From contig JAFTYS010000026.1 in NCBI GenBank assembly GCA_017461285.1, forward strand, positions 1-64,000: a stretch of 64,000 nt of DNA. The letters are read 5' to 3'. The notes under the pieces were generated by a model, which ran no database searches, had not been told where the DNA came from, and worked only from the letters and a program-made list of their open reading frames with translations. The stretch comes from Bacteroidales bacterium (GTDB lineage: Bacteria; Bacteroidota; Bacteroidia; Bacteroidales; UBA932). This document shows, one piece after another, positions 11,259 through 45,073 of the stretch. Each line of letters opens with the position of its first letter. Within the stretch, counting starts at the first letter, position 1. The translations under genes and the position numbers were made by a program.

Positions 11259-11939
11259 CTAAATATTGGGAATAAGCACACCCACGACTCGAAAGATGTT
11301 GATCACATCGCTGAAAGGCAGCTCGAAGTCGGGGAATTCCGCCTGATTCTCTGCGACGAACTTGAGGGTGTCCCCATTGTCGATTATCCTTCTGAGGAAC
11401 ATTCCCTGCGAGGCTGTGTCGACTACATAGATTTCTCCGTTGATGATTGTGGAGTCTTTCGGCATCCTGCGCAGAGCCATCAGATAGCCTCGGCAGATGC
11501 GTGGGGCCATTGCGTCCCCCGGACAGGTGGCAAAGATGTCATGCTTCTGGAAATGAGGTACATGCGGAAGTCTTTCCACGTGTAGCGATCCCATCACATA
11601 ATCATATATGTTGATCTCTGGTGCTCTGAACAGCCTTGCCGGAATCACGGGGATGTCATCGTCATGGTTGAGTTCCGGATGGTCCTCGATGTCATATTCC
11701 TTGACCATGTGGTCGGTTGTGTCAAACATAGGCCCTTCGCCGGTAAGAAGCCAGTTGATCCTGAATCCGAAAGCCTTGTTCCATTTGACGGCTGAATTCT
11801 TTCCGAAAGGGCGGCCGTTGAGCTGATTGCTGACAGCGGCCTGTTGCACATTGAGAATATTGGCCGCATCCTGCTGAGACATTCCGGACTCACTGAAGTA
11901 TTCTTTGATTCTTCTACCTATTTCTATAGGGTTATTCAT
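11259..11939 (-). CDS. XRE-family repressor with inactive S24-like domain (left copy)
   Basis: A 226-residue regulator. Residues about 5-65 form a helix-turn-helix (SQQDAANILNVQQAAVSNQLNG), and residues about 130-225 a LexA/CI-type S24 fold (FATCPGDAMAPRICRGYLMAL, GEIYVVDT, MFLRRI). In active S24 proteins the nucleophile is Ser in GxSM, and a Lys follows later. Here Ala143 replaces the Ser and Arg183 occupies the Lys position. The protein therefore probably cannot cleave itself, and the domain should serve dimerisation or ligand sensing. A palindrome 16 bases before the start suggests autoregulation. The gene is divergent from the small membrane protein. The paralogue is at 44384-45073. Confidence 0.9.
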   Translation of the reverse strand: MNNPIEIGRRIKEYFSESGMSQQDAANILNVQQAAVSNQLNGRPFGKNSAVKWNKAFGFRINWLLTGEGPMFDTTDHMVKEYDIEDHPELNHDDDIPVIPARLFRAPEINIYDYVMGSLHVERLPHVPHFQKHDIFATCPGDAMAPRICRGYLMALRRMPKDSTIINGEIYVVDTASQGMFLRRIIDNGDTLKFVAENQAEFPDFELPFSDVINIFRVVGVLIPNI

Positions 11940-11955
11940 AGTTTTGTGTAGTTGG

Positions 11956-11974
11956 TTTACAAAATTTGTGTAAA
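11956..11974. promoter_or_regulatory. Candidate regulator-binding palindrome (left copy)
   Basis: Read on the minus strand it is TTTACACAAATTTTGTAAA, a 19-base near-palindrome ending 16 bases before the regulator's ATG. The right arm has TTTACACATTTTTTGTAAA at 44351-44369, 14 bases before its ATG. Conservation in otherwise diverged leader DNA suggests an operator. Confidence 0.5.
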
Positions 11975-12012
11975 AAATAACTAAAAAGTGTTGTTTATTA
12001 CAAAAACGGTGT

Positions 12013-12020
12013 TATATTTG
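12013..12020 (+). promoter_or_regulatory. Promoter box for the small membrane protein (left copy)
   Basis: TATATTTG in GTGTTATATTTG, 42 bases before the ATG at 12063. The same stretch in the right arm, on the other strand, has TATGTTTG. Confidence 0.45.
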
Positions 12021-12045
12021 TGGTGATTTCTGTAATAATTCGGTG

Positions 12046-12053
12046 CAAATATA
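12046..12053 (-). promoter_or_regulatory. Promoter box for the XRE/S24 regulator (left copy)
   Basis: TATATTTG on the minus strand in ATGTTATATTTGCACC. The right arm has the nearly identical GTGTTATATTTGCACC at 44269-44284, driving the paralogue. Confidence 0.5.
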
Positions 12054-12062
12054 ACATAAATT

Positions 12063-12284
12063 ATGGGAATTAGATTAAATGTTTCAAAATTTGTAGAGTC
12101 ATGCTCAAAGAGCATAGTCAAGTATTTCTCTACTATGACCCTTGAAAAGGGCTCTTCTCTCGTGTGTTTTACAATGGGCACTGTATTCCTTATTCTTGCA
12201 CTGTTCGGCCCATGGAAATATTATGTAACCATGAGCCTCTGCTACCTTGCAGCCTTTATTGTCACGGAAGACCGGGAAAGATAA
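12063..12284 (+). CDS. Small two-helix membrane protein (left copy)
   Basis: A 73-residue protein with a basic N-terminal third followed by two hydrophobic helices (CFTMGTVFLILALFG and YVTMSLCYLAAFIV) and a charged tail. It resembles no named family I know. The right-arm paralogue (43986-44210) keeps the layout and the pattern TLEK..C..G...LI.AL.G.W, ending FAVGVMISDE. It lies divergent to the repressor-like gene and convergent to the S9 peptidase in both arms, so it may be under that regulator. The function is unknown. Confidence 0.65.
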   Translation: MGIRLNVSKFVESCSKSIVKYFSTMTLEKGSSLVCFTMGTVFLILALFGPWKYYVTMSLCYLAAFIVTEDRER

Positions 12285-12314
12285 AGGTCTGAATGGCGTC
12301 ACCATTCAGACCTT
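12284..12314. terminator. Bidirectional terminator between small membrane protein and S9 peptidase (left)
   Basis: AAGGTCTGAATGG pairs with CCATTCAGACCTT around a 5-base loop. It starts at the last base of the small gene's stop codon and lies 9 bases from the S9 stop. Confidence 0.8.
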
Positions 12315-12322
12315 CAAATACC

Positions 12323-14683
12323 TTAGAGCCATTCAGAAAGCCATCTGAAATACTCCCTGTGCCACATCATCGCGTTCTGCGGTTTGAGAATCCAGTGGTT
12401 CTCATCCGGGAATATGAGCAGTCTTGAAGGCACACCCATCATCTGGGCTGCGTTGTATGCAGCCATTCCCTGATCTACAGGCACTCTGTAGTCCATCGCA
12501 CCATGTATCACCATCAACGGAGTGTTCCACTTCGTGACCTTCTTGTGAGGTGACTCGGCATAATGGCGTACTGCACGAGGTGCATTGCTCCAAGGAGATC
12601 CTCCCTGACGTATGCCGCCGAATGTCTGTCCGTCGCCTGCCGGACCGACAGGAGCTGAAGCCGTTCCCAGACGTGAGTCGAACCATGCCTCATGCAGGCC
12701 GCCGTTGTCGAAGTTAGGGAACCAGAGCTCCTCTGTAGTCATATACATGTGCTCCTGGTTGAAGATTCCCGCATGAGCGATGAAGGCGTCGAACATGCCC
12801 TCGTGGGTTCCGCAAAGATTATATACCGAATATCCTCCGTAGCTTGCACCGCAGGCGGCCATCTTTCCTACGAAAGGCTCTGCCTTGAGTTCGCGTGCAG
12901 CGGCAAGATAGTCCTGCATGTTCAGACCCGGATAATCACCCGAAATCTGCTCTGTCCAATCCTGCCCGAAAGCTGTGGTTCCGCGGCGGTTAGGCAGCAC
13001 GACCACATAGCCCTGATCGGCCATCAGACGGTAGTTCCATCTGTAAGACCATCCCTGGCTGAGGGTTCCCTGGGGACCTCCGAGGCAGATGAGGATTGCC
13101 GGATATTCCTTTGATGCGTCGAACTGAGGAGGGTAGAGAACCCAGGTCAGCATGTCCTTTCCGTCAACGGTCCTTACCATGCGCGCCTCGGTCTCATGTG
13201 GAGTAAGCTGTGAAAGCAGGTGGTCGTTCTCAGCTGTGATCTGCTTGCAGTCCGCAGCTGCTGCCACGCCGTCAGCGGGTACAGTCACAGCAACAAGTTC
13301 GGTAGGGAAGTCCATGCTGCACCATGTCGTGTAAAGAGTCTTGCTTCCATCCTCAGATTCCGCTACATGGAACGGCGAACCGAAATCATACCAGAGGTCA
13401 TCGGCAGTAAGTCTCTCTATTTCCCAAGGGGCAAGCTTCTTTGCAACCGCGGCTTTTCTGAGACCTTCAACTGCTTCTGTAGAAGGACCTTCGGCAACGA
13501 ATATTCCCTGAATACCCTCAGCAAGCGCTGCAAAATATATCTCTTCCGAATCTTCCGACCATACAGGGCCGCTTGCGTTGTATCTGAATGACTCGGTCAC
13601 ATCTGTGATGCCCCAGAACGAAGGCATTCCCTTTCCGTTTCCGGACACTTCCGACCAGTCTGCGTAAGCCACCATAAGTCTCTGCTTGTCAGCCTCGTAG
13701 CCATCGCGGGCCATGCTTATCCATGCAAGTCTTGAACCGTCAGGACTCCATACCGGATCAGTGTCGTATCCGCCCTTCATGTCGATGACGGAGGTCTCGG
13801 CAGTCTTTACATTATATATATAGATTTCGGTATTGGTAGAGAAAGCATATTTCTTACCGACGAGCTTCCTGCATGAATATGCGATGAATCTGCTGTCCGG
13901 GCTCCATGCCAGCTGCTCGATGCCGCTGAAAGGCTCAGTAGGGAGTTCGTAAAGAGCGCCTTCCTCTCCAAGAATGTCAACCGAATTTTCAGCCGAAATG
14001 ACTTTATTGCCTGAGAAGCTGAAATCAGCTATGTATGTATGCGGAATCTCCAGCACGGTATGGTCCCAATGTCTGTAGAGCAGGTCGTCAGTCGTGTAGG
14101 CCGTTGCCTTGTCAAGCTCAGGATAGATGTCCGAAGGTGACTTCACATGGCTCTTCACATAGCTCACATACATGATCTTCTTCTGGTCCGGAGAAAGCTT
14201 GAACTCGCCGACTCCCGAAGGAACGTCGCTGACCTGCTTCATTCCGCTCAGAGTCCATTTGCCACCTTTCTGACCGACCTTTGCCACCCAGACTTGTCCT
14301 CCCATAGTGAAGGCTATCTTCTTGCCGTCATTGCTCCATCGGGCATTGTTCAGGCTCTTTCCTGAAGTAGTGATCTGCTGAGGATCAGACCCGTCAAGGT
14401 TGCATATAAACAGATTGCGCACGCTTCTGTTCTCTTCCACAGAAGTATAGCTTACACCATATAATATATGTTCCCCGTCAGGTGATACCTGCGGATCGGA
14501 AAGTCGTCCGAATGCCAGCAGCACTTCCGGACTCATCTTGCCGTCTTCTACAATCATCGAGCTTCTGCCGATATAGCCTTCGTCGCTCAATCCGTTCTTT
14601 TCTCTTGTCATGACAATCAGGATTCCTGCAGCAATTCCTATCAGGAATGTAAAACCGCAGATAAGTTTAACTCTTTTCTTCAT
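12323..14683 (-). CDS. S9 family prolyl-oligopeptidase-like peptidase (left copy)
   Basis: About 786 residues when started at MKKRVKLICGF; the frame opens 5 codons earlier. An N-terminal hydrophobic anchor (about residues 6-25) places it in the periplasm. A WD40-like beta-propeller region follows (repeated WSPDGS, WSNDGK, LSPDQKK motifs), then an alpha/beta hydrolase domain. The triad is visible: Ser near residue 614 in GASYGG, Asp near 731 in HGAMDYRVP and His near 763 in DENHW. It fits dipeptidyl- or acylaminoacyl-peptidases of family S9. It starts 11 bases after the WYL gene and probably shares its transcript. The paralogue is at 41699-43972. Confidence 0.93.
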   Translation of the reverse strand: MKKRVKLICGFTFLIGIAAGILIVMTREKNGLSDEGYIGRSSMIVEDGKMSPEVLLAFGRLSDPQVSPDGEHILYGVSYTSVEENRSVRNLFICNLDGSDPQQITTSGKSLNNARWSNDGKKIAFTMGGQVWVAKVGQKGGKWTLSGMKQVSDVPSGVGEFKLSPDQKKIMYVSYVKSHVKSPSDIYPELDKATAYTTDDLLYRHWDHTVLEIPHTYIADFSFSGNKVISAENSVDILGEEGALYELPTEPFSGIEQLAWSPDSRFIAYSCRKLVGKKYAFSTNTEIYIYNVKTAETSVIDMKGGYDTDPVWSPDGSRLAWISMARDGYEADKQRLMVAYADWSEVSGNGKGMPSFWGITDVTESFRYNASGPVWSEDSEEIYFAALAEGIQGIFVAEGPSTEAVEGLRKAAVAKKLAPWEIERLTADDLWYDFGSPFHVAESEDGSKTLYTTWCSMDFPTELVAVTVPADGVAAAADCKQITAENDHLLSQLTPHETEARMVRTVDGKDMLTWVLYPPQFDASKEYPAILICLGGPQGTLSQGWSYRWNYRLMADQGYVVVLPNRRGTTAFGQDWTEQISGDYPGLNMQDYLAAARELKAEPFVGKMAACGASYGGYSVYNLCGTHEGMFDAFIAHAGIFNQEHMYMTTEELWFPNFDNGGLHEAWFDSRLGTASAPVGPAGDGQTFGGIRQGGSPWSNAPRAVRHYAESPHKKVTKWNTPLMVIHGAMDYRVPVDQGMAAYNAAQMMGVPSRLLIFPDENHWILKPQNAMMWHREYFRWLSEWL

Positions 14684-14694
14684 ATAAGTGTAAT

Positions 14695-15642
14695 TCATTT
14701 GTTATCTATGCCATAATCCGACACACCGGATTGAAGCTGTTTTGCTACGGCAGTCCTTACCGGCTCAGGCGATAGTACCTCCACCCTTCCGGCAAATTTG
14801 CAGAACTCCATCACAAGGTTTTCATTAGGGCAGACGAAGATGCTGAAGATCACGTCATCTCCTTTCTTTCCGTATCTGTCCATGATTTCCAGCCTCTGGC
14901 GTCCTGTCACTTCTGTCTGGCTGGAATGAACAGGGAGGTCCCTGAGGAATCTTGCCTCCGTAGGTGAAGCCTTGAATAGAATCGTCTGTCCCGGTCCTTC
15001 CGGAAGATAAATTCCAAAACTTGTCGCAAACAGCTCGTCCACATCAAACCCGTCCGGCATCCGGAACTTTCTGTCCGTCACTTCCATGTGCTGGATTCTG
15101 TCCAGTCCGTAAACACGCAGAGCCTCTCTCTCCAGACAATAGCCGATGATATACCATCTCTTGGCAAATTCTTTCACTGCGTACGGTCTTAAAGTGTATT
15201 GACCACCCTGAGAACTGGTGTATTTCTGGTATGTGATGACAATCTCCAGTCCTTCTGTCATTGCTTCAAGGACGGCAGTCAGATGACTGTGTCCCGACGG
15301 AATGTCCTCCACAGACACTCTTCCCGACAGCCTTTCTTTTCCCAGAGCCAGCATGTTGTTGACAGTGAATGTGTTTATCAGCCATGCAGTCTCGGCATTC
15401 TCGTCGCTCACGTCTTCCGAGTATTCGACAAAATATCGGTTCGTGCTGCGGTTGCAACCTATCCTGACTCCGAAGACCTCCTCCACGGCTTCACGATGGT
15501 TGTTGAACGTACGACGCGAATACGGACTGTCAAACCTTTCCTCCCACCTGTCTGAGATATCCTCCAGACTGAGGCCACGCTCTCCGGCCCTGATGAACGT
15601 CTGCACCAGCCAGATGTATTTCCTTAATAACTCCGTTACCAT
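14695..15642 (-). CDS. WYL-domain transcriptional regulator (left copy)
   Basis: A 315-residue protein. The N-terminal part resembles a winged helix (GERGLSLEDISDRW). A WYL domain lies around residues 140-220, with RPYAVKEFAKRWYIIGYC holding the conserved basic and aromatic residues, and a C-terminal WCX-like extension follows. Proteins of this type bind nucleic acid or small ligands and control DNA repair or defence genes in other bacteria. Here it sits between recG and the S9 peptidase on one strand, in the same order as in the right arm. In this arm a short repeat has entered between recG and this gene. The target is unknown. Confidence 0.88.
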   Translation of the reverse strand: MVTELLRKYIWLVQTFIRAGERGLSLEDISDRWEERFDSPYSRRTFNNHREAVEEVFGVRIGCNRSTNRYFVEYSEDVSDENAETAWLINTFTVNNMLALGKERLSGRVSVEDIPSGHSHLTAVLEAMTEGLEIVITYQKYTSSQGGQYTLRPYAVKEFAKRWYIIGYCLEREALRVYGLDRIQHMEVTDRKFRMPDGFDVDELFATSFGIYLPEGPGQTILFKASPTEARFLRDLPVHSSQTEVTGRQRLEIMDRYGKKGDDVIFSIFVCPNENLVMEFCKFAGRVEVLSPEPVRTAVAKQLQSGVSDYGIDNK

Positions 15643-15655
15643 ATCAATATATGTC

Positions 15656-15703
15656 TGTTATCCTGAACATCCTTCTGTCATTCTGAACGAAGTGAAGAAT
15701 CTT
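15656..15703. repeat. Widespread intergenic repeat inserted between recG and WYL
   Basis: The segment contains GTCATTCTGAACGAAGTGAAG (15677-15697). Its complement is the ACTTCGTTCAGAATGAC type of repeat seen in many bacterial genomes. A partial second copy (TATCCTGAACATCC) precedes it. The right arm has only 3 bases between recG and WYL, so this is an insertion seen against its empty site. Confidence 0.7.
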
Positions 15704-17887
15704 TCAACTGATTTTACTATAATCCTTCACCTGATATTTGTCCTTCCGTAATTCATTGCGCAGCAGCTGATTCTGATCCGCATGAAGCGTCGGATCCTCC
15801 CTCAGTACGGCCTCCGCGCAGTCCCTGGCCGCATTGAGTATAAGTCCGTCCTTGGCCAGAGAAGCTATGTTGAGACTTATCGGCAGACCGCTCTGCTGAG
15901 TTCCCTCCAGATCGCCCGGCCCCCTCATCTTCATGTCTTCCTCCGCCAGCTCGAATCCGTTTTCGGTAGCGCACATAAGCTCGATCCTGTGCTTCGACTC
16001 CTTGCTCATCTTGTGTCCTGTCATCAGCACGCAGTACGACTTCTCGCTTCCTCGTCCCACTCGGCCACGCAACTGATGAAGCTGACTGAGTCCGAATCTT
16101 TCCGCGCTCTCAATCACCATCACCGATGCGTTAGGCACATCCACTCCGACTTCGATAACCGAAGTCGCCACAAGAATATCTGCCCTGCCTGCAGCAAAAG
16201 CATCCATATTGAACTTCTTCACATCGTTCTGCTGCTTGCCATGCACCACAGCCGTCTTGTAGTCCGGGAAAGGGAAGTGCTTGATGATATCCTCAGCTCC
16301 GGCTTCAAGGCTCTGGTAGTCAAGCTTCTCTGTTTCGTTGATCAGAGGATAAACCACAAAAATCTGGCGTCCCAGCGCAATCTGGTCCTTCATGAACTTA
16401 TAGAGTGCCGGCCTTTTACCTTCGGTCGCATGAATCGTCTGCACCGGCTTTCTTCCAGGAGGAAGTTCGTCGATAACGGACACATCAAGGTCTCCGTACA
16501 GAGTCATGGCGAGAGTGCGCGGAATAGGCGTCGCCGTCATCACAAGCACATGCGGAGGCGCTCCACAAACTGATTTTCTCCACAGTTTCGACCTCTGTTC
16601 CACACCGAACCTGTGCTGCTCGTCTATGATTGCCAGACCGAGATTGCGGAATACAACATTGTCTTCTATCAACGCATGTGTGCCTACTATGATGCCTATG
16701 CTGCCGTCCTCAAGTCCGGCATGGACCTCTCTTCTCTCAGTGGTCTTGGAACTGCCTGTAAGCAGTGCAGACTTTACGCCTGTCGGCTCCAGGAACTTCT
16801 GAATGTTTTTATAATGCTGCTGGGCAAGCACTTCCGTAGGTGCCATTATGCATGCCTGAAAGCCGTTTCCTATCGCTATCAATGCTGTGAGCACGGCAAC
16901 CATTGTCTTGCCGCTTCCGACATCTCCCTGAAGAAGCCTGTTCATCTGATGCCCGCTCTTCATGTCGTTGCGGATCTCCGTGATCACCCTTTTCTGAGCA
17001 CCTGTGAGAGGGAAGGGAAGTGCCTCGTAACATCTGTTGAATGCATCACCGACCTTTGGCATGATGATGCCCTGCTCAGCCCTGCTCCGCACATATTTCT
17101 GTTTCAGAAGCGATAGCTGCAAATAAAAGAGCTCTTCGAATTTAAGCCTGTATTTCGCCTTTTCAAGCGAAACCATATCCTTCGGGAAATGAATGTTCCT
17201 CAATGCAAAATGTATTGGTACGAGCCCGCACTGCCTCATTATATATTCCGGCAGACTCTCCTCCACGGCCCCAAGAGCCTTGTTGAGCGCCGACTCCATC
17301 AGCTTGTTCATCACCTTGCCGGTCACCCCGCTGTTCTTGAGTCTTTCCGTGCTCTGATAAACTCCCGTCATCGACATCCCGGCACCCGCTCCCGCTGCTG
17401 CTCCTGCCGGCACCGCGTCCACCTCAGGATGCACGATGTTCATCCTGCCGTTAAACGCCGTCGGCTTCCCGAAAAACACCCACTCGCTGCCGCTCTTCAG
17501 CCTCTCATACATCCACTTGATACCCTTGAAGAACACCAGCTCCATCTCTCCGCTTCCGTCGCTTACCCACACACTCATCCTCTTCACCGTGTTGAACTTC
17601 ACGGCCTTTCCGGCGGTTCCTCCAGCAGCTTCTCCTGCAGCCGGACCGTTACCGAACAGATCCACCCTCACGACCCGTGCGCGGAACTGTACATAAGCCA
17701 TGTCCGGTCTCGCGTCGGCAATCCTCATCATAGAACTCCGGTCGATATACCTGAACGGATAAAGCCTCAGGAGTTCCCCCACGTTACCTACGCCAAGCTC
17801 CTTCCGCAGCAGATCGGCCCTCTTCGGCCCGACCCCCGGCAGAAACTGAATATCCATCTCCAGAGCGCTCTTTTCCATATGTGCCAT
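15704..17887 (-). CDS. recG: ATP-dependent DNA helicase RecG (left copy)
   Basis: A 727-residue branch-migration helicase that remodels stalled forks and Holliday junctions. The N-terminal wedge/OB region begins IQFLPGVGPKRADLLRKEL. The Walker A motif is GDVGSGKTMVA, the DEAH-type box is DEQHRFG, then come TATPIPRTLA (motif III), and LHQLRGRVGRG (motif VI). The C-terminal family tail is present. It is somewhat longer than the usual 690-700 residues because of an Ala/Gly-rich linker near residue 165-170 (VPAGAAAGAGAG) that differs from the right copy. The first codons are uncertain (MAHMEKSALEMDIQ). It is transcribed ahead of WYL and divergently from pdxA. Confidence 0.96.
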   Translation of the reverse strand: MAHMEKSALEMDIQFLPGVGPKRADLLRKELGVGNVGELLRLYPFRYIDRSSMMRIADARPDMAYVQFRARVVRVDLFGNGPAAGEAAGGTAGKAVKFNTVKRMSVWVSDGSGEMELVFFKGIKWMYERLKSGSEWVFFGKPTAFNGRMNIVHPEVDAVPAGAAAGAGAGMSMTGVYQSTERLKNSGVTGKVMNKLMESALNKALGAVEESLPEYIMRQCGLVPIHFALRNIHFPKDMVSLEKAKYRLKFEELFYLQLSLLKQKYVRSRAEQGIIMPKVGDAFNRCYEALPFPLTGAQKRVITEIRNDMKSGHQMNRLLQGDVGSGKTMVAVLTALIAIGNGFQACIMAPTEVLAQQHYKNIQKFLEPTGVKSALLTGSSKTTERREVHAGLEDGSIGIIVGTHALIEDNVVFRNLGLAIIDEQHRFGVEQRSKLWRKSVCGAPPHVLVMTATPIPRTLAMTLYGDLDVSVIDELPPGRKPVQTIHATEGKRPALYKFMKDQIALGRQIFVVYPLINETEKLDYQSLEAGAEDIIKHFPFPDYKTAVVHGKQQNDVKKFNMDAFAAGRADILVATSVIEVGVDVPNASVMVIESAERFGLSQLHQLRGRVGRGSEKSYCVLMTGHKMSKESKHRIELMCATENGFELAEEDMKMRGPGDLEGTQQSGLPISLNIASLAKDGLILNAARDCAEAVLREDPTLHADQNQLLRNELRKDKYQVKDYSKIS

Positions 17888-18082
17888 ATCACGGCAAATT
17901 TACAAAACTCTCCCCAAATAATCCATACCTCTGCCCAAAACTTTTGTATGCAACGCTCCCGACCGTCATGTCGCCAACTCCATCACAAGCCTCGCCACCG
18001 CCATTGGCGATTACCGCCACTAGCACCATATCCCAAACCGCTGCTGGAAACATCAAGACTGTGCCATTTCAAATAAAAAAGT

Positions 18083-18090
18083 TATCTTTG
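18083..18090 (+). promoter_or_regulatory. Promoter box for pdxA-rnhA (left copy)
   Basis: TATCTTTG 27 bases before the pdxA ATG. The rest of the 230-base recG-pdxA gap shows nothing else I can support. In the right arm this gap is expanded to about 5.8 kb. Confidence 0.45.
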
Positions 18091-18117
18091 TAAGATATTT
18101 CATAAAAAGTAAATACA

Positions 18118-19200
18118 ATGGCAAAGAAATTAGTCGTGGGAATTACCCAGGGAGACGGGAACGGAATCGGTTATGAAGTGATAATCAAGGCACTGGCTGA
18201 TGAAAGAATGCTTGACCTCTGCACTCCGGTAATCTATGGTTCATCAAAGATATTCGGATTCTACAAAAAGCAGATACATAATCTCGAACAGATAAATACC
18301 AATGTGATATCTTCTGCAAAGGATGTCCACAATAAAAGAGTAAATATAGTCAACTGCCTTCCGGAAAACGTCTTCGTGGAGCCAGGTCAGGCAACCCCTG
18401 AGTCTGCAAAGTCCGCGATGACCGCGCTCGAAAGGGCAGTCGAAGACATAAAGGCGGGATATATCGATGTCCTGGTTACAGCTCCGATCAACAAAAGGGC
18501 AATGGTAAGCGAAGGTTTCAGCTACACAGGCCATACGGAATATCTTGAGAAGGAGTTCGGTGTCGATGAGGTGGCGATGATCATGGTATGCGATCAGCTC
18601 AAGGTGGGTGTGGTGACAGGCCATATATCCCTGAAGGACGTCTGCGGCAGCATCACTCAGGAGAAGATCCTCAAGAAGCTCAGACTGATGAAGGCATCCC
18701 TCCAGAGGGACTTCGGTGTCGATCAGCCGAAGATTGCCGTACTTGGTCTCAACCCTCACTGTGGTGACGGCGGTCTGCTCGGCGACGAGGAACAACAGAT
18801 AATTCTCCCGGCTGTGAAGGCGGCAAATGAAGAAGGCATACTCGCGTTCGGTCCATACTCTCCTGACGGTTTCTTCGGTCTTGGCAATTACAGTAAATAT
18901 GATGCTGTCCTTGCCATGTATCACGACCAGGGCCTGACACCGTTCAAGGCTCTCGCGTTTGAAGAGGGCGTGAATTACACTGCGGGCCTGCCGATCGTCA
19001 GAACATCCCCTGATCATGGCACAGCCTATGAAATGGCCGGTCGCGACCTCGCGGATCCACGTTCGATGATGTCGGCTATCTATACGGCTATTGATATCTT
19101 CAACCGTCGTGCAGACTATGATGATCTTGTGGAAAACCGCATGACAGTCAAGATGCCTGACACTGAAATCAAGCCACGTGGCGGAAGAATCATCGAGTAA
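18118..19200 (+). CDS. pdxA: 4-hydroxythreonine-4-phosphate dehydrogenase (left copy)
   Basis: A 360-residue cytoplasmic enzyme of vitamin B6 synthesis. It oxidises 4-phosphohydroxy-threonine to the aminoketone used by PdxJ. Family features are GITQGDGNGIGYEVI at the start, TGHTEYL, the metal-binding histidines and aspartates in AVLGLNPHCGDGG and AMYHDQGLTPFK, and VRTSPDHGTAYEMAG. The C-terminal tail (TEIKPRGGRIIE) is slightly longer than in proteobacterial enzymes and is shared with the right copy. The stop overlaps the rnhA start (TAATG), so the two are translationally coupled. About 27 residues differ from the paralogue. Confidence 0.96.
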   Translation: MAKKLVVGITQGDGNGIGYEVIIKALADERMLDLCTPVIYGSSKIFGFYKKQIHNLEQINTNVISSAKDVHNKRVNIVNCLPENVFVEPGQATPESAKSAMTALERAVEDIKAGYIDVLVTAPINKRAMVSEGFSYTGHTEYLEKEFGVDEVAMIMVCDQLKVGVVTGHISLKDVCGSITQEKILKKLRLMKASLQRDFGVDQPKIAVLGLNPHCGDGGLLGDEEQQIILPAVKAANEEGILAFGPYSPDGFFGLGNYSKYDAVLAMYHDQGLTPFKALAFEEGVNYTAGLPIVRTSPDHGTAYEMAGRDLADPRSMMSAIYTAIDIFNRRADYDDLVENRMTVKMPDTEIKPRGGRIIE

Positions 19201-19742: not shown

Positions 19743-19906
19743 CACTTTGTCGTCTCCCAGCAAGATTGGCTTATCCCTGCAATAGCAGGCATGAGCATGC
19801 TGCAGTCGCTTTAAAAACATCAGATAAAAGAATCGGCGTCTGTGGAAATGCAGTGATCTGTGAAGATATGAGGTACACGCAAAATTATTAAAAACTGATT
19901 ATAATT

Positions 19907-20461: not shown

Positions 20462-20485
20462 GAACAACTCTCCCGTCAAAGAGAA

Positions 20486-21414: not shown

Positions 21415-21415
21415 T

Positions 21416-21447: not shown

Positions 21448-21472
21448 ATTTTTGAATATAAAAAGTATAGAT

Positions 21473-24748
<3,276 letters not shown>

Positions 24749-36484: not shown

Positions 36485-37345
36485 ATGGCTAAAGAAAGAT
36501 TTTACCACATCTACACCAAAGGACTGGAAGACATGGTCATATTCCTAGATCGTGAAGATTATATTGCCGGTATGAACTATATCGCCATATGCGTACATCT
36601 GACTTCAATTGACTTATTGGCATTTGTATTGATGTCCAATCATTTCCATTTCGTTACGAAATCCGGACACGATGATGCGGTAAGATTCATTAACTTATTC
36701 AAACAGTTGATAGCGTCTTATCTAAGAAATAAATATGGAATAGTCAAAGCTTTACATCAATGCATTGCCGAATGTAAAGAAATCGATCTGACGGATGAAG
36801 GTCTCAAGAAAATCATAGCATACATTCTCAATAATCCTGTAAAGGCCGGTATCAACTGCGCTCCACAAAATTATGAATGGAGCAGTTGCAGATGCTACTT
36901 TTCAAATATCGGGACAAGTAAGCATCTCACTCCGATCAGCAGTTTAGGCACTAGGAAAGCCAGGAGAATCTTACATAGTAAATGTCAACTGAACGATAGT
37001 TATCTTATTAATGAAGATGGATATATCGAACCGGCATCATATATAAATATTCAATTTGTAGAAAAACTCTTTAAGAGAGCAAGTTCACTAGGATACTTCT
37101 TGAATTCTTCGAGTAGGACAGATCGAAAGGAAATGCCTGTTTCGTACAGTGACAGCACAATAATATCATGTCTTAAAGAGATTCTGGAAAAGCAGTATGA
37201 TTCATTGAGTATCAGCGAACTTCCTGAAGAAAGTGTCATAAGAATCATAAGATATCTTAAAAACAAGTTAGCATGCTCACCAAAGCAGATAGCAAGGATA
37301 TTGAACCTAGAAGTGAAAAGAGTAATACAGGTAATAAATATTTAA
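36485..37345 (+). CDS. REP-associated Y1 (IS200-like) transposase
   Basis: 286 residues from MAKERFYHIYTKG; the frame opens 13 codons earlier. The HUH metal motif NHFHF is at residues 52-56 (His53, His55). The catalytic Tyr113 lies in AYILNNPVKAGI, the typical RAYT form. A C-terminal region (residues about 235-286) resembles a DNA-binding helix set (SELPEESVIRIIRYLK, SPKQIARILNL). Such single-strand transposases are tied to palindromic REP elements and are often domesticated. No IS terminal repeats are seen. Two BIME-like units lie about 0.75 kb before and 0.66 kb after it. The HRDC gene follows 21 bases downstream, probably on the same transcript. Confidence 0.88.
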   Translation: MAKERFYHIYTKGLEDMVIFLDREDYIAGMNYIAICVHLTSIDLLAFVLMSNHFHFVTKSGHDDAVRFINLFKQLIASYLRNKYGIVKALHQCIAECKEIDLTDEGLKKIIAYILNNPVKAGINCAPQNYEWSSCRCYFSNIGTSKHLTPISSLGTRKARRILHSKCQLNDSYLINEDGYIEPASYINIQFVEKLFKRASSLGYFLNSSSRTDRKEMPVSYSDSTIISCLKEILEKQYDSLSISELPEESVIRIIRYLKNKLACSPKQIARILNLEVKRVIQVINI

Positions 37346-37366
37346 ACCATTTAAAATCGAATCATT

Positions 37367-37912
37367 ATGTTGTACAAAGAAGAATTGATCAGAGTTTACG
37401 AAGAGGCAATTGCAGTAGCCAGGTTTGAGGCTAAGATTGAGGCCAGGATGAGAGTAGCGTTGTCGATGCTTGAAAGTGAAATGAGTTACGAAGAGATTGA
37501 GAAGTTTACCGGGGTGACCAAGGATGAAATCGAATATGAAATCGAAAGTAACATGGATTGGGATACCGAGTGGGACAGTGACTGGAGAGCTGAACATGAT
37601 TGTGTTCATGGAAATAAAATGGACGACCGAGCTAGGAAAACCACAGCAGATGTGGTAAGGGAAGCTACACCAAAGCCGGAGGATCTGCCGATTGTCAATA
37701 TCGGGTTGGAGATACGGCTCAAGGAATGGAGGTCTAAGCATTACAAGGCGTTGAACATACCGGCTTATAGAGTAATTCCGAACAAGACTCTTACAGAGAT
37801 CGCCACCAAGATTCCTCGGACTCGCGAAGAGCTGATGGCGATCAACGGATTTGGAGAAGCAAGATGGGAAAAGTTCGGAGAAGAGATTCTGGCTATCACG
37901 TCTGAATTTTAA
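37367..37912 (+). CDS. HRDC-domain protein next to the transposase
   Basis: 181 residues. The C-terminal 65 residues form an HRDC domain, the nucleic-acid-binding module of RecQ helicases and RNase D (LKEWRSKHYKALNIPAYRV, LTEIATKIPRTREELMAING, WEKFGEEILAI). The first 60 residues are helical and charged (EEAIAVARFEAKIEARMRVA, MSYEEIEKFTGVTKDEIE). They resemble the C-terminal tail of Rpn/PD-(D/E)XK transposase-like proteins, but no nuclease domain is present. It starts 21 bases after the transposase stop. I infer a DNA-binding accessory to the transposase; there is no direct evidence. No terminator is obvious before the repeats at 38007. Confidence 0.75.
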   Translation: MLYKEELIRVYEEAIAVARFEAKIEARMRVALSMLESEMSYEEIEKFTGVTKDEIEYEIESNMDWDTEWDSDWRAEHDCVHGNKMDDRARKTTADVVREATPKPEDLPIVNIGLEIRLKEWRSKHYKALNIPAYRVIPNKTLTEIATKIPRTREELMAINGFGEARWEKFGEEILAITSEF

Positions 37913-38006
37913 CATAGGTATCAAGGTTAATAACTATATTATTATAGATAAAAGCGTATGTATTAGTAGATAAGACCAGCTATAGATACACACAACGGGC
38001 ATAAGT

Positions 38007-38128
38007 GTGGCTAGGGGTGGGGTTTGTCTGAGCCCTAGACACAGGGACTTTTTTGTAAGGCATTATTAAACAGCAAATTACAAACCAGGTATGTGGCTAG
38101 GGCTTCCTTAAAATGAAGCCCTAGCCAC
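38007..38128 (+). repeat. Double-palindrome unit (BIME-like), downstream copy
   Basis: 36-base palindromes at 38007-38042 and 38093-38128 (GTGGCTAGGG with CCCTAGACAC or CCCTAGCCAC), with a 50-base spacer folding by TTGTAA/TTACAA. The last palindrome is perfect including the inner GGGCTTC/GAAGCCC. Three of the four palindromes keep a G-G mismatch at the same inner position. Confidence 0.8.
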
Positions 38129-38205
38129 ACCTTAAAACGGAAAATGGTCAAAAGTATCCGATCAAAGAAGCTAAAGAAGGAAACGGACACAGAAACTGAA
38201 AAGAA

Positions 38206-38283
38206 GAAACTGGATAAGGAACCTGAACGAAGGGATGGAGGAAAGAAACTGAATAAGGAACCTGAACGAAGGGATGGAGGGAA
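38206..38283 (+). repeat. 39-base direct tandem repeat in purine-rich tract
   Basis: Two nearly identical 39-base units containing AAGGAACCTGAACGAAGGG, within a roughly 370-base tract in which the plus strand is overwhelmingly A and G. Confidence 0.75.
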
Positions 38284-38546
38284 GGAGCAAGACAAGAAAT
38301 CTGAGAGAAACACGATAGTTGGAAGATGGAGATGAAAAGAGAAGATGGTCGAGGAAGAGGAAGATGGAAGAGGAAGATGGAAGTAAGGGACGAACGAGGA
38401 GATGGGACAAGAAATGCGAGAGGATGTTGAGAGAGAAGGTAGAAGAGAAAAAGGAAGAAGAGACGAACAGGAGATGAAGAGACGAACAGGAGACTAACGG
38501 GAGATGAAGAGGGGATTTGGAATTAATTTATTATATTTGCTGTATT

Positions 38547-40724
38547 ATGGCACATGGACTGGATATGGAGATTCAATTTCTGCCGGGGGTGGGGCCTAAG
38601 AGGGCTGAACTTCTGCGGAAGGAGCTGGCAGTGGAGACTGTCGGCGATCTTTTGCGTCTGTACCCTTTCAGGTACATCGACAAGAGTTCCATTGTCAGGA
38701 TCTGTGATGCGAGACCGGACATGGCATACCTTCAGGTCCGTGCAAGGGTCACCAGGGTAGACCTCTACGGTTCCAACGGACAGGCTGAAACCGACACACT
38801 GAAGTTCAACACCATACGTAGAATGAGTGTTTGGGTGGAAGACGGTACCGGAGAGATGGAGATGGTCTTCTTCAAGGGCATCAAGTGGATGCACGAGAAG
38901 CTGAAGCCGGGAACGGAGTTCATCTTTTTCGGCAAGCCGACCGCATTCAACGGACGCATCAACATGGTCCATCCTGAAGTCGACGCAGTCCCAGTCCAAA
39001 AGTCCCAGCTCCCATCGGGACAGACGGGGGAACTGGGTGGCTATGGGGCACCGAAGATGACGGGAGTGTATGCTAGTACTGAGAGGTTGAAGAATGCGGG
39101 GGTCACCGGGAAGGTTATGAACAAGATGATGGAGGCGGCGCTGGACAGGGGGCTTCCTTACATCGAGGAGTCGCTTCCGGAGTATGTCATGAAGCAGTGC
39201 GGACTTGTGCCTCTGCATTATGCGCTCCGCAACATCCACTTCCCTACCGACATGCTCGCCCTTGAGAAGGCCAAATACAGACTGAAGTTCGAGGAGCTGT
39301 TCTATCTCCAGCTCTCGCTTCTGAAACAGAAATACATACGCAGCAGAGCCGAGCAGGGAATCGCCATGCCTAAGGTGGGCGAGGCGTTCAACCTCTGCTA
39401 CAATGCTCTCCCCTTCCCTCTCACGGGAGCCCAGAAAAGGGTGATAACGGAGATAAGGAACGACATGAAGAGCGGCCACCAGATGAACCGCCTGCTTCAG
39501 GGAGACGTGGGCAGCGGAAAGACCATGGTAGCTGTGCTTACGGCTCTGATAGCGATAGGCAACGGTTTCCAGGCATGCATAATGGCCCCTACCGAGGTCC
39601 TCGCACAGCAGCACTTCAAGAACATCCAGAAGTTCCTGGCGCCGACTGGCGTGAAGTCCGCGCTTCTTACCGGAAGCAGCAAGGCTTCCGAGAGGCGCGA
39701 GGTGCATGCAGGCCTTGAGGACGGCTCCATAGGCATAATTGTCGGCACGCACGCTCTCATCGAGGACAATGTCATCTTCCGCAATCTGGGTCTTGCGATC
39801 ATCGACGAGCAGCACAGGTTCGGCGTGGAGCAGAGGTCGAAGCTCTGGCGGAAGGCTTCATGCGGGGCTCCGCCGCATGTGCTCGTGATGACGGCCACGC
39901 CTATCCCGAGGACATTGGCCATGACCCTGTACGGCGATCTGGATGTATCAGTGATAGACGAGCTTCCTCCTGGAAGAAAGCCGGTTCAGACGATACATGC
40001 GACCGAAGGAAAGCGTCCTGCGATGTACCGGTTCATGAAGGAGGAGATCGCGAAAGGAAGGCAGATATTCATTGTCTATCCGCTGATAAACGAAACAGAA
40101 AAACTTGACTATCAGAGTCTTGAAGCAGGAGCAGAGGAGATCATGCAGAAATTCCCGTTCCCGGACTACAAGACGGCTGTCGTGCACGGAAAGCAGCTGA
40201 ACGATGTCAAGAAATTCAACATGGACGCCTTCGCGGAAGGCAGGGCGGACATCCTGGTCGCGACCTCGGTGATCGAGGTCGGAGTGGATGTCCCGAACGC
40301 TTCTGTAATGATAATAGAGAGCGCCGAGAGGTTCGGACTGAGCCAGCTCCATCAGCTGAGGGGGCGAGTGGGACGAGGAAGCGAGAAGTCTTACTGCGTG
40401 CTGATGACAGGCCATAAGCTCAGCAAGGAGTCGAAGCACAGGATAGAGCTGATGTGCGCGACAGAGAACGGCTTCGAGCTGGCTGAAGAGGACATGAAGA
40501 TGAGAGGCCCTGGAGACCTTGAAGGAACGCAGCAGAGCGGACTCCCTATCAGCCTCAACATCGCATCCCTGGCAAAGGACGGCATGATACTTAACGCCGC
40601 AAGAGACTGCGCGGAAGCGATTCTGAAGGAGGACCCGACCCTCACGTCAGACCGTAACCAGCTGCTGCGCAAGGAACTGAGAAAAGACAAATATCAGATA
40701 AAGGACTATAGCAAAATCAGTTAG
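38547..40724 (+). CDS. recG: ATP-dependent DNA helicase RecG (right copy)
   Basis: 725 residues from MAHGLDMEIQFLPGVGPKRA. The frame opens ten codons earlier without family similarity. It carries the same motifs as the left copy: GDVGSGKTMVA, DEQHRFG, TATPIPRTLA, LHQLRGRVGRG. The linker before the helicase core differs (KSQLPSGQTGELGGYG against the Ala/Gly stretch of the left copy). The helicase domains are nearly identical. It is followed 3 bases later by the WYL gene, which shows the ancestral spacing that the left arm has lost. Confidence 0.96.
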   Translation: MAHGLDMEIQFLPGVGPKRAELLRKELAVETVGDLLRLYPFRYIDKSSIVRICDARPDMAYLQVRARVTRVDLYGSNGQAETDTLKFNTIRRMSVWVEDGTGEMEMVFFKGIKWMHEKLKPGTEFIFFGKPTAFNGRINMVHPEVDAVPVQKSQLPSGQTGELGGYGAPKMTGVYASTERLKNAGVTGKVMNKMMEAALDRGLPYIEESLPEYVMKQCGLVPLHYALRNIHFPTDMLALEKAKYRLKFEELFYLQLSLLKQKYIRSRAEQGIAMPKVGEAFNLCYNALPFPLTGAQKRVITEIRNDMKSGHQMNRLLQGDVGSGKTMVAVLTALIAIGNGFQACIMAPTEVLAQQHFKNIQKFLAPTGVKSALLTGSSKASERREVHAGLEDGSIGIIVGTHALIEDNVIFRNLGLAIIDEQHRFGVEQRSKLWRKASCGAPPHVLVMTATPIPRTLAMTLYGDLDVSVIDELPPGRKPVQTIHATEGKRPAMYRFMKEEIAKGRQIFIVYPLINETEKLDYQSLEAGAEEIMQKFPFPDYKTAVVHGKQLNDVKKFNMDAFAEGRADILVATSVIEVGVDVPNASVMIIESAERFGLSQLHQLRGRVGRGSEKSYCVLMTGHKLSKESKHRIELMCATENGFELAEEDMKMRGPGDLEGTQQSGLPISLNIASLAKDGMILNAARDCAEAILKEDPTLTSDRNQLLRKELRKDKYQIKDYSKIS

Positions 40725-40727
40725 ACC

Positions 40728-41672
40728 ATGGTAACGGAACTGCTGAAGAAATACTTATGGCTGGTGCAGACCTTCATCCGCGCAGGAGAGAGGGGCCTCA
40801 GTCTCGACGAGATCACATACCGGTGGGAGGAAAGGTTCGGCACGGACTATTCGCGCCGCACGTTCAACAACCACAGGGAAGCTGTGTTCGAAGTCTTCGG
40901 AATCGACATAAAATGCAACAGGAGCACGAACCGCTACTTCATCGAATACTCCGAGGATGTGGCGGACGAGAACGCAGAAACAGCCTGGCTCATAAACACT
41001 TTCACCGTCAACAGCATGCTCTCGATGGGAAAGGAAAGGCTTTCGGGAAGAATCTCCGTGGAGGACATCCCTTCGGGCCACAGGCACCTTACAAGCATCA
41101 TGGAGGCGATGAACGAGAACTGCGAGATGGTCATCGGATACCGCAAGTACACCAGTGAGGAGACAGGCACATACACATTGCGCCCATACGCGGTCAAGGA
41201 GTTTGCAAAGAGGTGGTACCTGGTCGGATACTGCATCGAACGCGACGCGATGAGGATCTACGGACTGGACCGAATCATGAGCCTGGAGATGACAGGAAAC
41301 AGGTTCAAGATGCCTAAGGACTTCGACGTGGACAGGATATTTGCGACGAGCTTCGGCCCGTACATACCGGAATCGAAGGGTCAGACGGTAGTCTTCCGCA
41401 CGACGCGGAAGGAGGCGAACTTCCTCCGCGACCTGCCGGTCCACGGCAGCCAGAGGGAGCTGTCGCCGGCAGAGGCACGGAAGCATGTGCCCGGACTGAA
41501 TCCGCTGGATGAGAGCGTGTATTTCGAGATATTCGTATGCCCGAACGACTCTCTGATTATGGAGTTCTGCAAGCATGGGGCCCGGCTGGAGGTCGTGAGC
41601 CCGGCGAGCGTACGCGAGGCTGTCGGAGCGGAGCTCCGGAAGGCAGCCGAGCAATACGCGCACGAAAGCTGA
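40728..41672 (+). CDS. WYL-domain transcriptional regulator (right copy)
   Basis: 314 residues. It shares the winged-helix start (GERGLSLDEITYRWEERFG), the WYL core (RPYAVKEFAKRWYLVGYC) and the WCX-like tail with the left copy. It is more divergent towards the C-terminus (HVPGLNPLDESVYFEIFVCP). It starts 3 bases after recG and precedes the S9 peptidase by 26 bases, so recG-WYL-S9 is likely one transcript. The ligand and targets are unknown. Confidence 0.88.
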   Translation: MVTELLKKYLWLVQTFIRAGERGLSLDEITYRWEERFGTDYSRRTFNNHREAVFEVFGIDIKCNRSTNRYFIEYSEDVADENAETAWLINTFTVNSMLSMGKERLSGRISVEDIPSGHRHLTSIMEAMNENCEMVIGYRKYTSEETGTYTLRPYAVKEFAKRWYLVGYCIERDAMRIYGLDRIMSLEMTGNRFKMPKDFDVDRIFATSFGPYIPESKGQTVVFRTTRKEANFLRDLPVHGSQRELSPAEARKHVPGLNPLDESVYFEIFVCPNDSLIMEFCKHGARLEVVSPASVREAVGAELRKAAEQYAHES

Positions 41673-41698
41673 AAATAATCAAACGTTAAACTACAAAT

Positions 41699-43972
41699 AT
41701 GAAAACAACCGGAAAAGTGGTCAGCTTTACAGCGCTGGCAGCAATCGCAATCGGATTATTTATTTTTATGAAAAAGGACAGACAGGAAATCAGCAGCGAA
41801 GGATTCATCGGCAGAAGCACGATAGCCATCGAAGATGGCAAGATGGGTCCGGAGGCACTCCTGGCCTTCGGCCGAGTGTCGGACCCGCAGGTCTCGCCTG
41901 ACGGAAAGCATGTCATATATGGTGTGAGCTACACGTCAGTGGAGGAGAACCGCAGCGTGCGCAACCTGTACATCTGCAATCTGGACGGATCTGACAATCA
42001 GCTGCTCACCAAAGCCGGCAAAAGCATCTCCAACGCACGCTGGAGCAATGACGGCAGGAAGCTAGCGTTCCTCTACGGAGGCCAGATCTGGACGGCGGAC
42101 ATCAGACATGGAAAGAAGGGCTGGAGCCTTAAGAACATGAAGAAGATCAGCGACGTGGCCAACGGCATCGGCGAGTTCAAGATCTCCCCAGACGGAAAGA
42201 AGGTGATGTACATCAGCTACATAAAGAGCGCCGTGAAATCTCCGACAGACTGCTACAGCGACCTTGACAAGGCGACCGCATACACGACCGACGACCTGAT
42301 GTACCGCCATTGGGACCACACCGTGATGGAGATTCCGCACACTTTCGTCGCAGACATCGACCTGGAGGAAGGGACAACAGGCGCTCCGAAGGACATACTC
42401 GAAGGGGAGAAGGAGCTCTACGAACTTCCTACAGAGCCGTTCGGCGGTCTGGAACAGCTGTCATGGAGCCCCGACAGCAGATATATAGCATATTCATGCC
42501 GCAAGCTGGCAGGAAAGAAGTACGCCTTCTCGACCAACACGGAGATATACATATATGATGTAGAGACCGGCCAGACAGAGATGATCGAGATGGGCGGAGG
42601 ATACGATACCGATCCTGTCTGGAGCCCTGACGGAAAGAAACTGTGCTGGATCAGCATGGAGAGGGACGGTTATGAGGCTGACAAGCAGAGGCTTATCGTC
42701 GCTGAGATGACAACAGAGGAAGGACAGATGCCGAAGGCAGAGAAGATCCAGGACATCACCGTGGACTTCAAGTACAACGCATCGTCGCCGGTATGGGCCG
42801 ATGATTCGAAGAGCATCTGGTTCGCCAGCCTCGCCGAAGGCCTCCAGGGCATATTCAGGGCATACGAGGACGCAGAGAGCTGGGATATCGAGCGCATCAC
42901 AGGAGATGATTTGTGGTACGATTTCGGCTCGCCTTTCTATGTAGCTGACAGCGAGGACGGCGGAAAGACGCTCTACACGACATGGTGCAGCATGGACTTC
43001 CCTACCGAACTCGTGGCCGTAAACATAAACGGAACCGGACTCTCATGCAGCCAGATAACCGACGAGAACGGCCACATCCTCGATCAGCTTGCCGAGCATA
43101 AGACTGAAGCGAGATACGTGAAGACCGTGGACGGCAAGGATATGCTGACATGGGTGCTCTACCCTCCTCAGTTCGACCCTTCGAAGGAATATCCTTCGAT
43201 CCTGATCTGCCTCGGAGGCCCTCAGGGCACATTGAGCCAGGGATGGTCATACCGCTGGAACTACCGTCTGATGGCGTCGCAGGGCTATGTGGTCGTGCTT
43301 CCGAACCGTCGCGGAACAACGGCGTTCGGCCAGGAATGGACGGAGCAGATCTCGGGCGACTACCCGGGCCTCAACATGCAGGACTATCTGGCCGCAGCCC
43401 GCGAGCTGAAGGCGGAGCCGTATGTGGGCAAGATGGCGGCGTGCGGAGCAAGCTACGGCGGCTATTCGGTATACTACCTCTGCGGCACACATGAGAACAC
43501 ATTCGACGCATTCATCGCGCATGCGGGTATATTCAACGAGGAGCATATGTACATGACCACTGAAGAGATGTGGTTCCCGAATTTCGACAACGGCGGTCTG
43601 CATGAGACCGTCATCGACCCGAGGGTAGGCACGCCGGACGGTCCGGTCGGTCCTGCAGGAGACGGAGTGACTTTCGGAGGAATAAAGCAGGGCGGCTCGC
43701 CATGGAGCAACGATCCGAAGGCTGTGCGCCACTACGCTCTGTCGCCGCACAAGCTCGTCACAAAGTGGCACACGCCGCTGATGGTGATACACGGAGGAAT
43801 GGACTACAGGGTTCCGGTAGACGAAGGAATGGCCGCATACAATGCCGCACAGATGATGGGAGTTCCGTCAAGGCTCCTTATCTTCCCTGACGAGAACCAC
43901 TGGATACTCAAGCCGCAGAACGCGATGCTGTGGCACAGGGAATATTTCAGATGGCTTAATGAATGGCTGTAA
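41699..43972 (+). CDS. S9 family prolyl-oligopeptidase-like peptidase (right copy)
   Basis: 757 residues: an N-terminal membrane anchor (VVSFTALAAIAIGLFIFM), beta-propeller repeats (WSPDSRYIAYS, WSPDGKKLCWI) and hydrolase domain. The triad is present in GASYGG, HGGMDYRVP and DENHW. It is about 30 residues shorter than the left copy, mainly through a shorter propeller loop (the left copy has an additional VEGLRKAAVAKKL stretch). It is a periplasmic peptidase with an unknown peptide substrate. Its terminator lies inside the end of the convergent small gene. Confidence 0.93.
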   Translation: MKTTGKVVSFTALAAIAIGLFIFMKKDRQEISSEGFIGRSTIAIEDGKMGPEALLAFGRVSDPQVSPDGKHVIYGVSYTSVEENRSVRNLYICNLDGSDNQLLTKAGKSISNARWSNDGRKLAFLYGGQIWTADIRHGKKGWSLKNMKKISDVANGIGEFKISPDGKKVMYISYIKSAVKSPTDCYSDLDKATAYTTDDLMYRHWDHTVMEIPHTFVADIDLEEGTTGAPKDILEGEKELYELPTEPFGGLEQLSWSPDSRYIAYSCRKLAGKKYAFSTNTEIYIYDVETGQTEMIEMGGGYDTDPVWSPDGKKLCWISMERDGYEADKQRLIVAEMTTEEGQMPKAEKIQDITVDFKYNASSPVWADDSKSIWFASLAEGLQGIFRAYEDAESWDIERITGDDLWYDFGSPFYVADSEDGGKTLYTTWCSMDFPTELVAVNINGTGLSCSQITDENGHILDQLAEHKTEARYVKTVDGKDMLTWVLYPPQFDPSKEYPSILICLGGPQGTLSQGWSYRWNYRLMASQGYVVVLPNRRGTTAFGQEWTEQISGDYPGLNMQDYLAAARELKAEPYVGKMAACGASYGGYSVYYLCGTHENTFDAFIAHAGIFNEEHMYMTTEEMWFPNFDNGGLHETVIDPRVGTPDGPVGPAGDGVTFGGIKQGGSPWSNDPKAVRHYALSPHKLVTKWHTPLMVIHGGMDYRVPVDEGMAAYNAAQMMGVPSRLLIFPDENHWILKPQNAMLWHREYFRWLNEWL

Positions 43973-43980
43973 ACCAGATG

Positions 43981-44008
43981 AAGCGTCACTGTTTGTGACG
44001 CTTTTTTT
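43981..44008. terminator. Terminator behind S9 peptidase, overlapping the small gene's 3' end (right)
   Basis: AAGCGTCAC pairs with GTGACGCTT followed by seven T. The last codons and stop of the convergent small membrane protein gene lie inside this hairpin. Confidence 0.85.
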
Positions 44009-44210
44009 CTTGCTCATCGTCATCTGCCTCGTCAGAGATCATGACACCGACAGCGAAGCATATGCCCATGGTAAAGAAATGACGCCATAGACCGAGCAAA
44101 GCTACAATAAGGCATGCTATTCCGGAAAGGAAGCAGATCGCGGCAAGCACCTTCTCCAAGGTAATGCGTACCGGCCTGTTGTTAATATTGATCGTCATTG
44201 CCATACTCAA
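43986..44210 (-). CDS. Small two-helix membrane protein (right copy)
   Basis: 74 residues: a short basic N-terminus, two hydrophobic helices (VLAAICFLSGIACLIVALLG and FFTMGICFAVGVMI), and a charged tail (DEADDDEQEKKRHKQ). It is homologous to 12063-12284 in helix pattern and position, but more divergent than any other pair. The tail is encoded by the terminator hairpin of the neighbouring S9 gene, so part of it may be shaped by RNA structure rather than protein function. The start could be any of three close ATGs. The function is unknown. Confidence 0.65.
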   Translation of the reverse strand: MSMAMTININNRPVRITLEKVLAAICFLSGIACLIVALLGLWRHFFTMGICFAVGVMISDEADDDEQEKKRHKQ

Positions 44211-44272
44211 CCAAATTTACAATATCTGTATACTTTTCACTCTATAATCTGGGTAAAATTCACAAAATGTGT

Positions 44273-44280
44273 TATATTTG
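44273..44280 (+). promoter_or_regulatory. Promoter box for the XRE/S24 regulator (right copy)
   Basis: TATATTTG in GTGTTATATTTGCACC, about 100 bases before the ATG. The counterpart is 12046-12053. Confidence 0.5.
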
Positions 44281-44303
44281 CACCCAGTTACTGAAGCTCT
44301 TTG

Positions 44304-44311
44304 CAAACATA
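44304..44311 (-). promoter_or_regulatory. Promoter box for the small membrane protein (right copy)
   Basis: TATGTTTG on the minus strand in GTGTTATGTTTGC. The counterpart is 12013-12020. Confidence 0.4.
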
Positions 44312-44350
44312 ACACCAAAATTGTAAACTTTCAACACTTTTGTGAACTTT

Positions 44351-44369
44351 TTTACACATTTTTTGTAAA
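44351..44369. promoter_or_regulatory. Candidate regulator-binding palindrome (right copy)
   Basis: TTTACACATTTTTTGTAAA, 14 bases before the regulator's ATG, matching the left-arm site at 11956-11974. Confidence 0.5.
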
Positions 44370-44383
44370 GTATATCACCGAAT

Positions 44384-45073
44384 ATGTTAAACGCACTTGA
44401 AATAGGCAAGAAAATCAAGGAATATTTCTCCGAAGCCGGCATCTCCCAGACAGATGTGGCCAAGACGCTCGACGTCCAGCCTGCGGCCGTGAGCAATCAG
44501 CTGAACGGCCGCCCATTCGGAAAGAACTCGGCAGCAAAATGGAGCAATGCATTCGGGTTCAGGACCAATTGGCTCCTGACAGGAGAAGGCCCCATGTTCG
44601 ACCCGCAGGACATCCCCCACACCGACGGCATGCTGGACGACCATCCTGAACTTAACCATGAAGACGACATCCCCGTAGTTCCAGCAAGACTTTTCAGAGC
44701 ACCTGACATCAACATTTACGATTATGTGATTTCATCGTCTTCTGTCGACAGGCTTCCGCCTGTGCCTCACTTCCAGAAGCACGACATCTTCGCCACCTGC
44801 CCGGGCGATGCGATGGCCCCAAGAATCTGCAGAGGCTACCTTGTGGCTCTCAGAAGAATGCCTAAAGGATCGACTATAATCAACGGAGAAGTCTATGTAG
44901 TGGACACCAAGTCCAGCGGCATGTTCCTCCGAAAGATCGTAGACAACGGTCCGGAAGCCGGCACACTGACATTCATAGCAGAGAACCAGCAGGACTTCCC
45001 GGACTTCGAACTCCCCTACAACGACATAATCAATGTCTTCCGCGTAGTCGGAGTCCTCATCACGAACATCTAG
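44384..45073 (+). CDS. XRE-family repressor with inactive S24-like domain (right copy)
   Basis: 229 residues. It has the same helix-turn-helix (SQTDVAKTLDVQPAAVSNQL) and S24-like domain as the left copy. The nucleophile position is again Ala (Ala143 in CPGDAMAP) and the general-base position again Arg (Arg183 in MFLRKI), though a Lys follows directly. Identical loss in both copies shows that the change is old and tolerated. The protein is expected to repress without RecA-stimulated self-cleavage. It ends the right arm of the inverted duplication. A convergent GH97 gene follows across a long terminator. Confidence 0.9.
   Translation: MLNALEIGKKIKEYFSEAGISQTDVAKTLDVQPAAVSNQLNGRPFGKNSAAKWSNAFGFRTNWLLTGEGPMFDPQDIPHTDGMLDDHPELNHEDDIPVVPARLFRAPDINIYDYVISSSSVDRLPPVPHFQKHDIFATCPGDAMAPRICRGYLVALRRMPKGSTIINGEVYVVDTKSSGMFLRKIVDNGPEAGTLTFIAENQQDFPDFELPYNDIINVFRVVGVLITNI

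Follow-up and report, generated by a model that had tools for sequence, protein, structure and literature searches.

The window, by which we mean the whole 64-kb stretch of DNA analysed here, carries a block of genes in two copies arranged as a mirror image. Comparison of its open reading frames with each other yielded 10 clear gene pairs, with order and strand both mirrored, which span 11.3–25.2 kb and 25.9–45.1 kb. The axis between these two arms is occupied by ssrA and a tRNA-Val gene. Judged by protein similarity, the source of the window is Candidatus Cryptobacteroides or a close relative; in a scan with PdxA, the best relatives were metagenome-assembled Bacteroidales genomes, and two of the best five are named Candidatus Cryptobacteroides. 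The features are listed below, with nucleotide identities to G240, a genome recovered among 400 when the axis region was used as query; G029 is a second relative. The assignment of the halves to a species A and a species B is the highly probable one argued for in the later sections.

1–25,305: left half, assigned to species A; left flank, left arm and the bactofilin–ssrA spacer; 16 genes with 64.7–88.0% nucleotide identity to G240
Within 1–25,305: left flank with an ArsP_2 transporter, a DUF1573 protein, an M16 peptidase, a LysR-type HTH protein, PFOR, tRNA-Arg and an acyltransferase
11,259–25,249: left arm with S24, a small ORF, S9, WYL, recG, pdxA, rnhA, rfbC, rfbD, secA and bactofilin
25,306–25,702, minus strand: ssrA (tmRNA, tag GNNSYALAA), inside which the two species very probably meet
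25,526–25,702: ssrA segment shared without mismatch by the window, G240 and G029
25,740–25,816, minus strand: tRNA-Val(tac), identical in G240
25,703–64,000: right half, assigned to species B, a sister of G240; right arm and right flank; 24 backbone genes with 84.9–97.7% nucleotide identity to G240
25,911–45,073: right arm in mirror order, defined by ORF pairing with the left arm
32,786–38,516: extra DNA of the right arm between pdxA and recG, with an apiosidase-like enzyme, two ORFs without Pfam family and an HRDC protein
45,194–63,647: right flank, assigned to species B, with GH97, transketolase, MFS, GH10, GH43, UxuA, SASA esterase, SDR, PfpI and others

Between the arms, the encoded proteins share 75% (S24), 72% (S9), 66% (WYL), 84% (RecG), 92.5% (PdxA), 84% (RnhA), 75.5% (RfbC), 53% (RfbD), 87% (SecA), and 75% (bactofilin) identity. 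The original prediction had put the differences at about 27 of 360 residues in PdxA and about 45 of 184 in RfbC, and both figures are exact. It had also counted 11 mirrored pairs, of which the 10 above are clear in order and strand, while the eleventh is weak. Specifically, the eleventh pair consists of two small proteins of 73 and 74 residues beside S9 (12,063–12,284, plus strand; 43,986–44,210, minus strand), which are 33% identical over 48 residues; no Pfam family was found for them. At the DNA level, 20 blocks of 71–2341 bases are complementary between the arms. As their complementarity is only 71–84%, a simple fold-back artefact is rejected, in agreement with what had been expected from the divergence of the arms.

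The mirrored order has one gap, in that the right arm holds ca. 5.7 kb of extra DNA between pdxA and recG (32.8–38.5 kb). This segment is variable cargo. Its HRDC protein is 98.3% identical to that of G029 and 37.6% to that of G240, hyp36 is 46.7% identical to its G240 match at the amino acid level, and hyp34 has no match in G240. No match to the apiosidase-like enzyme (apio) was found in the pieces of G240 and G029 that were compared. RfbD (20,486–21,391 and 29,745–30,623) stands apart from its neighbours in another way. Aside from the low identity between the arms, its left or right copy is only 34.8–57.9% identical to those of many relatives, far below the values of the neighbouring genes, which may reflect either fast evolution or replacement.

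Copy number and ssrA orientation in relatives

In two related loci, L001 and L003, the block is present once. Its order there is PFOR, acyltransferase and tRNA-Arg, S24, S9, WYL, recG, pdxA, rnhA, rfbC, rfbD, secA, and bactofilin, which is the order of flank and arm in the left half of the window. SecA was matched in 187 of 200 genomes of the genus, and among the matches listed (down to ca. 1580 bits, 187 genomes) only G063 has two full-length secA copies. These are located on separate contigs (C87 and C46), each with its own tRNA-Arg, acyltransferase, and PFOR. Since each version of the block has its own contig and its own flanks, G063 is probably a bin of two species. With the right SecA as query, the 10 genomes searched gave one full copy each. 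In six relatives whose ssrA is intact and linked to bactofilin (G141, G249, G190, G260, G290, and G136), the 2–23 kb retrieved on the far side of ssrA contained no second arm. This statement is based on a listing of every hit, as the locus maps give only the best hit for each gene and second copies would not appear in them. G141 and G190 each have one rfbC homologue beyond ssrA.

The position of ssrA is conserved downstream of bactofilin in 18 genomes, but its orientation is not: the two genes are on the same strand in 13 and on opposite strands in five. The tally has one count per genome and includes loci with both bactofilin and ssrA; the genomes are among the best matches of earlier searches rather than a random sample, and G002 was left out. 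The left arm of the window is of the opposite-strand type, with bactofilin and ssrA 57 bases apart, compared with 64, 70, 92, 338, and 918 bases by the same measure in the five relatives. In the right arm, as in G240, G141, and G249, the two genes share a strand and tRNA-Val lies in between. Hence, the mirror shape arises because the window joins one arm of each orientation type. The tRNA-Val gene also shifts in place and strand downstream of bactofilin among the 18 Cryptobacteroides genomes, so that this appears to be a locally rearranging spot.

Nearest relatives of the two halves

The right half is colinear in runs with two contigs of G240, C12 and C52. C12 (8117 bases) carries pdxA to ssrA, and its SecA, PdxA, and bactofilin are 99.0%, 98.6%, and 97.1% identical to those of the right arm, respectively. 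C52 is 90–92% identical in nucleotides to the outer right arm, and matches the window from 44,302 to 63,669 in a single run at 91%. On the basis of these identities, G240 is taken to be a sister species of the right half. The left half differs: its flank is 73% identical over 6.8 kb to its own G240 counterpart, and PFOR is 87% identical on a second G240 contig. Across the window, all 24 right backbone genes fall within the higher range listed above for G240 and are largely colinear with it, whereas all 16 left-half genes fall within the lower range. The right tally was made without the four cargo genes (apio, hyp34, hyp36, and HRDC), and some of the identities cover part of a gene (LysR, 121 of 609 bases; the right recG, recG_R, 1667 of 2208; transketolase, TKT, 1404 of 2016).

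A three-way comparison of the window, G240, and G029, covering 34 of 44 genes, gives the same division. For 15 of 16 left genes, the exception being LysR, the G240 and G029 versions resemble each other more than either resembles that of the window; in the M16 peptidase, for instance, identity is 94.1% between these two genomes and 65% to the window. For 14 of 18 right genes, the window version is nearer to that of G240 than the G029 version is, the exceptions being rnhA, MFS, GH10, and GH43. In the secA tree, the right copy joins G240 (100/98) and then G029 (100/100), and the left copy is placed outside. In the recG tree, which has 18 rows and was built without G240, the right copy joins G029 (100/99). 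The nearest relative therefore switches at one point, and does so beyond the repeated genes as well, since both flanks follow the split. GC3 is higher in the right copy for all 10 arm pairs.

Several observations count against a chimeric origin of the window. LysR, rnhA, MFS, GH10, and GH43 depart from the split pattern, and GC3 of the left-flank genes is similar to that of their G240 orthologues. Tetranucleotide profiles, whose comparison had been proposed beforehand as a check on the arms, separate the halves weakly; the value is 0.87 within the left half, 0.84 within the right half, and 0.83 between them, which is just a slight difference. For MFS, GH10, and GH43 (49,416–52,966), identity is 98.5–98.9% between G240 and G029 but 91–94% to the window, a pattern that perhaps results from exchange between the G240 and G029 species.

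We also searched for a genome of species A, and obtained no close match. No match above 81% nucleotide identity to the left block was found among the matches listed, with 245 of the 400 genomes scored. When S9 was compared with 155 further genomes, presumably the unscored ones, the best full-length match was 77% identical at the amino acid level.

The junction inside ssrA and its explanations

The species split falls inside ssrA. Within this gene, the window shares an identical stretch of 177 bases with G240 and of 178 bases with G029. The G240, G029, and G307 contigs terminate at 25,526, 25,525, and 25,524 in window coordinates, i.e., within 3 bases of each other. The G015 contig ends near 25,495. 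From the other side, contigs of G338, G358, and G034 end near 25,639, 25,572, and 25,410, respectively, and the G125 contig also ends inside ssrA. Altogether, of the 18 contigs on which bactofilin and ssrA are linked, eight stop within ssrA. The PFOR gene, which is also conserved, is broken up in a similar way in G240 and G029, with its parts at contig ends.

Three explanations had been listed in the original prediction with no choice among them, namely an old segmental inverted duplication, capture of a relative's block at ssrA, and the joining of two related genomes at ssrA during assembly. The third is favoured by our results. We conclude with high confidence that the window is a chimeric metagenome contig, in which two related Cryptobacteroides species of the gut have been mis-joined at ssrA. 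The mirror duplication is thus most likely an assembly error and not a new kind of genome structure. The sequence from position 1 to ca. 25.5 kb would derive from species A, and that from ca. 25.5–25.7 kb to 64 kb from species B, the sister of G240. The assembler probably walked from A into B via an ssrA stretch common to both and longer than its k-mer; species A would accordingly share this stretch. As ssrA would be convergent with bactofilin in A and co-directional in B, the walk would return along the B copy of the block, and the product would be an inverted repeat with species-level divergence. The source is presumably a short-read assembly, and the join a computational one made by the assembler.

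One study states that de Bruijn-type assemblers are unable to choose the right contig for a join when a conserved region exceeds k in length (PMC11443906). The window agrees with such a mis-join in that the join lies in a conserved RNA gene with more than 170 bases identical between species. It differs in that the cassette has opposite orientations in the two species, which makes the product mimic a mirror duplication. In a mock-community study, Salmonella/E. coli chimeric contigs, which combine two genera, are described with the chimeric parts always at contig ends (PMC8172020). The join in the window is instead inside a contig of at least 64 kb, which counts against a chimera.

An alternative is that a real species A genome gained core chromosome of a G240-like species, at least 38 kb in length and mirrored across ssrA. 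If so, there would be a living Cryptobacteroides strain in which secA, recG, pdxA, and eight other genes each occur as two diverged copies. Such a capture would yield the same sequence, and tmRNA genes are reported to be frequent island sites (PMC11915505); in islands integrated at ssrA (e.g., PMC3146451, PMC11915505), as in the window, the gene lies at the boundary of DNA of two origins. In G002, 28 bases beside bactofilin (locus L254, G002:C2, 196–223) repeat the ssrA 3′ end exactly, and the full ssrA is on another contig (G002:C12); the piece looks like an attachment-site remnant. The ssrA 3′ end of the window gave a single match in the 64 kb with up to three mismatches allowed, so that no second 3′ end is present there, and no integrase or transposase was found among the 37 distinct window proteins scanned. 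Integration usually uses the 3′ end of ssrA, whereas the G240-like side of the window is the 5′ side. Core genes are in native order on both sides, and the switch sits where other assemblies break. We consider capture at ssrA improbable.

An old inverted duplication inside one genome, with the arms diverged since, would account for the mirror order of genes and strands and for the divergence of the arms. It is contradicted by the secA and recG trees and by the flanks. The right arm resembles G240 far more than it does the left arm, with right SecA 99.0% identical to that of G240 as opposed to 87% to its left copy. Moreover, the flanks on either side, which are not duplicated, are divided in the same way, and, apart from G063, the relatives searched have a single secA among the matches listed. 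The right arm and the flanks group with another species rather than with the left arm, which makes this explanation very unlikely. The sequence would also be the same if the molecule had been joined before assembly, by ligation or template switching during library preparation, and template switching too favours shared stretches, but random ligation is not expected inside ssrA where other contigs end, and we regard such a join as the least likely origin of all.

With a mis-join by the assembler as the preferred reading, the window illustrates well how a chimera could escape ordinary contig checks, because its halves are from one genus or close kin, have G+C contents of 50.2% and 51.5%, and are similar in tetranucleotide profile. 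The mis-join looks like a mirror duplication of core genes because the orientation of ssrA beside bactofilin flips between species. Read support is needed wherever a duplication of core blocks around conserved RNA genes is claimed from metagenome contigs.

Two smaller features were seen in the comparison with G240 and G029. The recG gene of G240 (C52, ca. 112,011–115,922) matches the window in three pieces, with extra stretches of ca. 400 bases between them. An intergenic repeat at window positions 1287–1365 is dispersed over at least 17 places in G240 and G029, in full or in part, at 81–93% identity, and similar short repeats are located near 52.97–53.09, 57.30–57.35, and 63.69–63.84 kb of the window.
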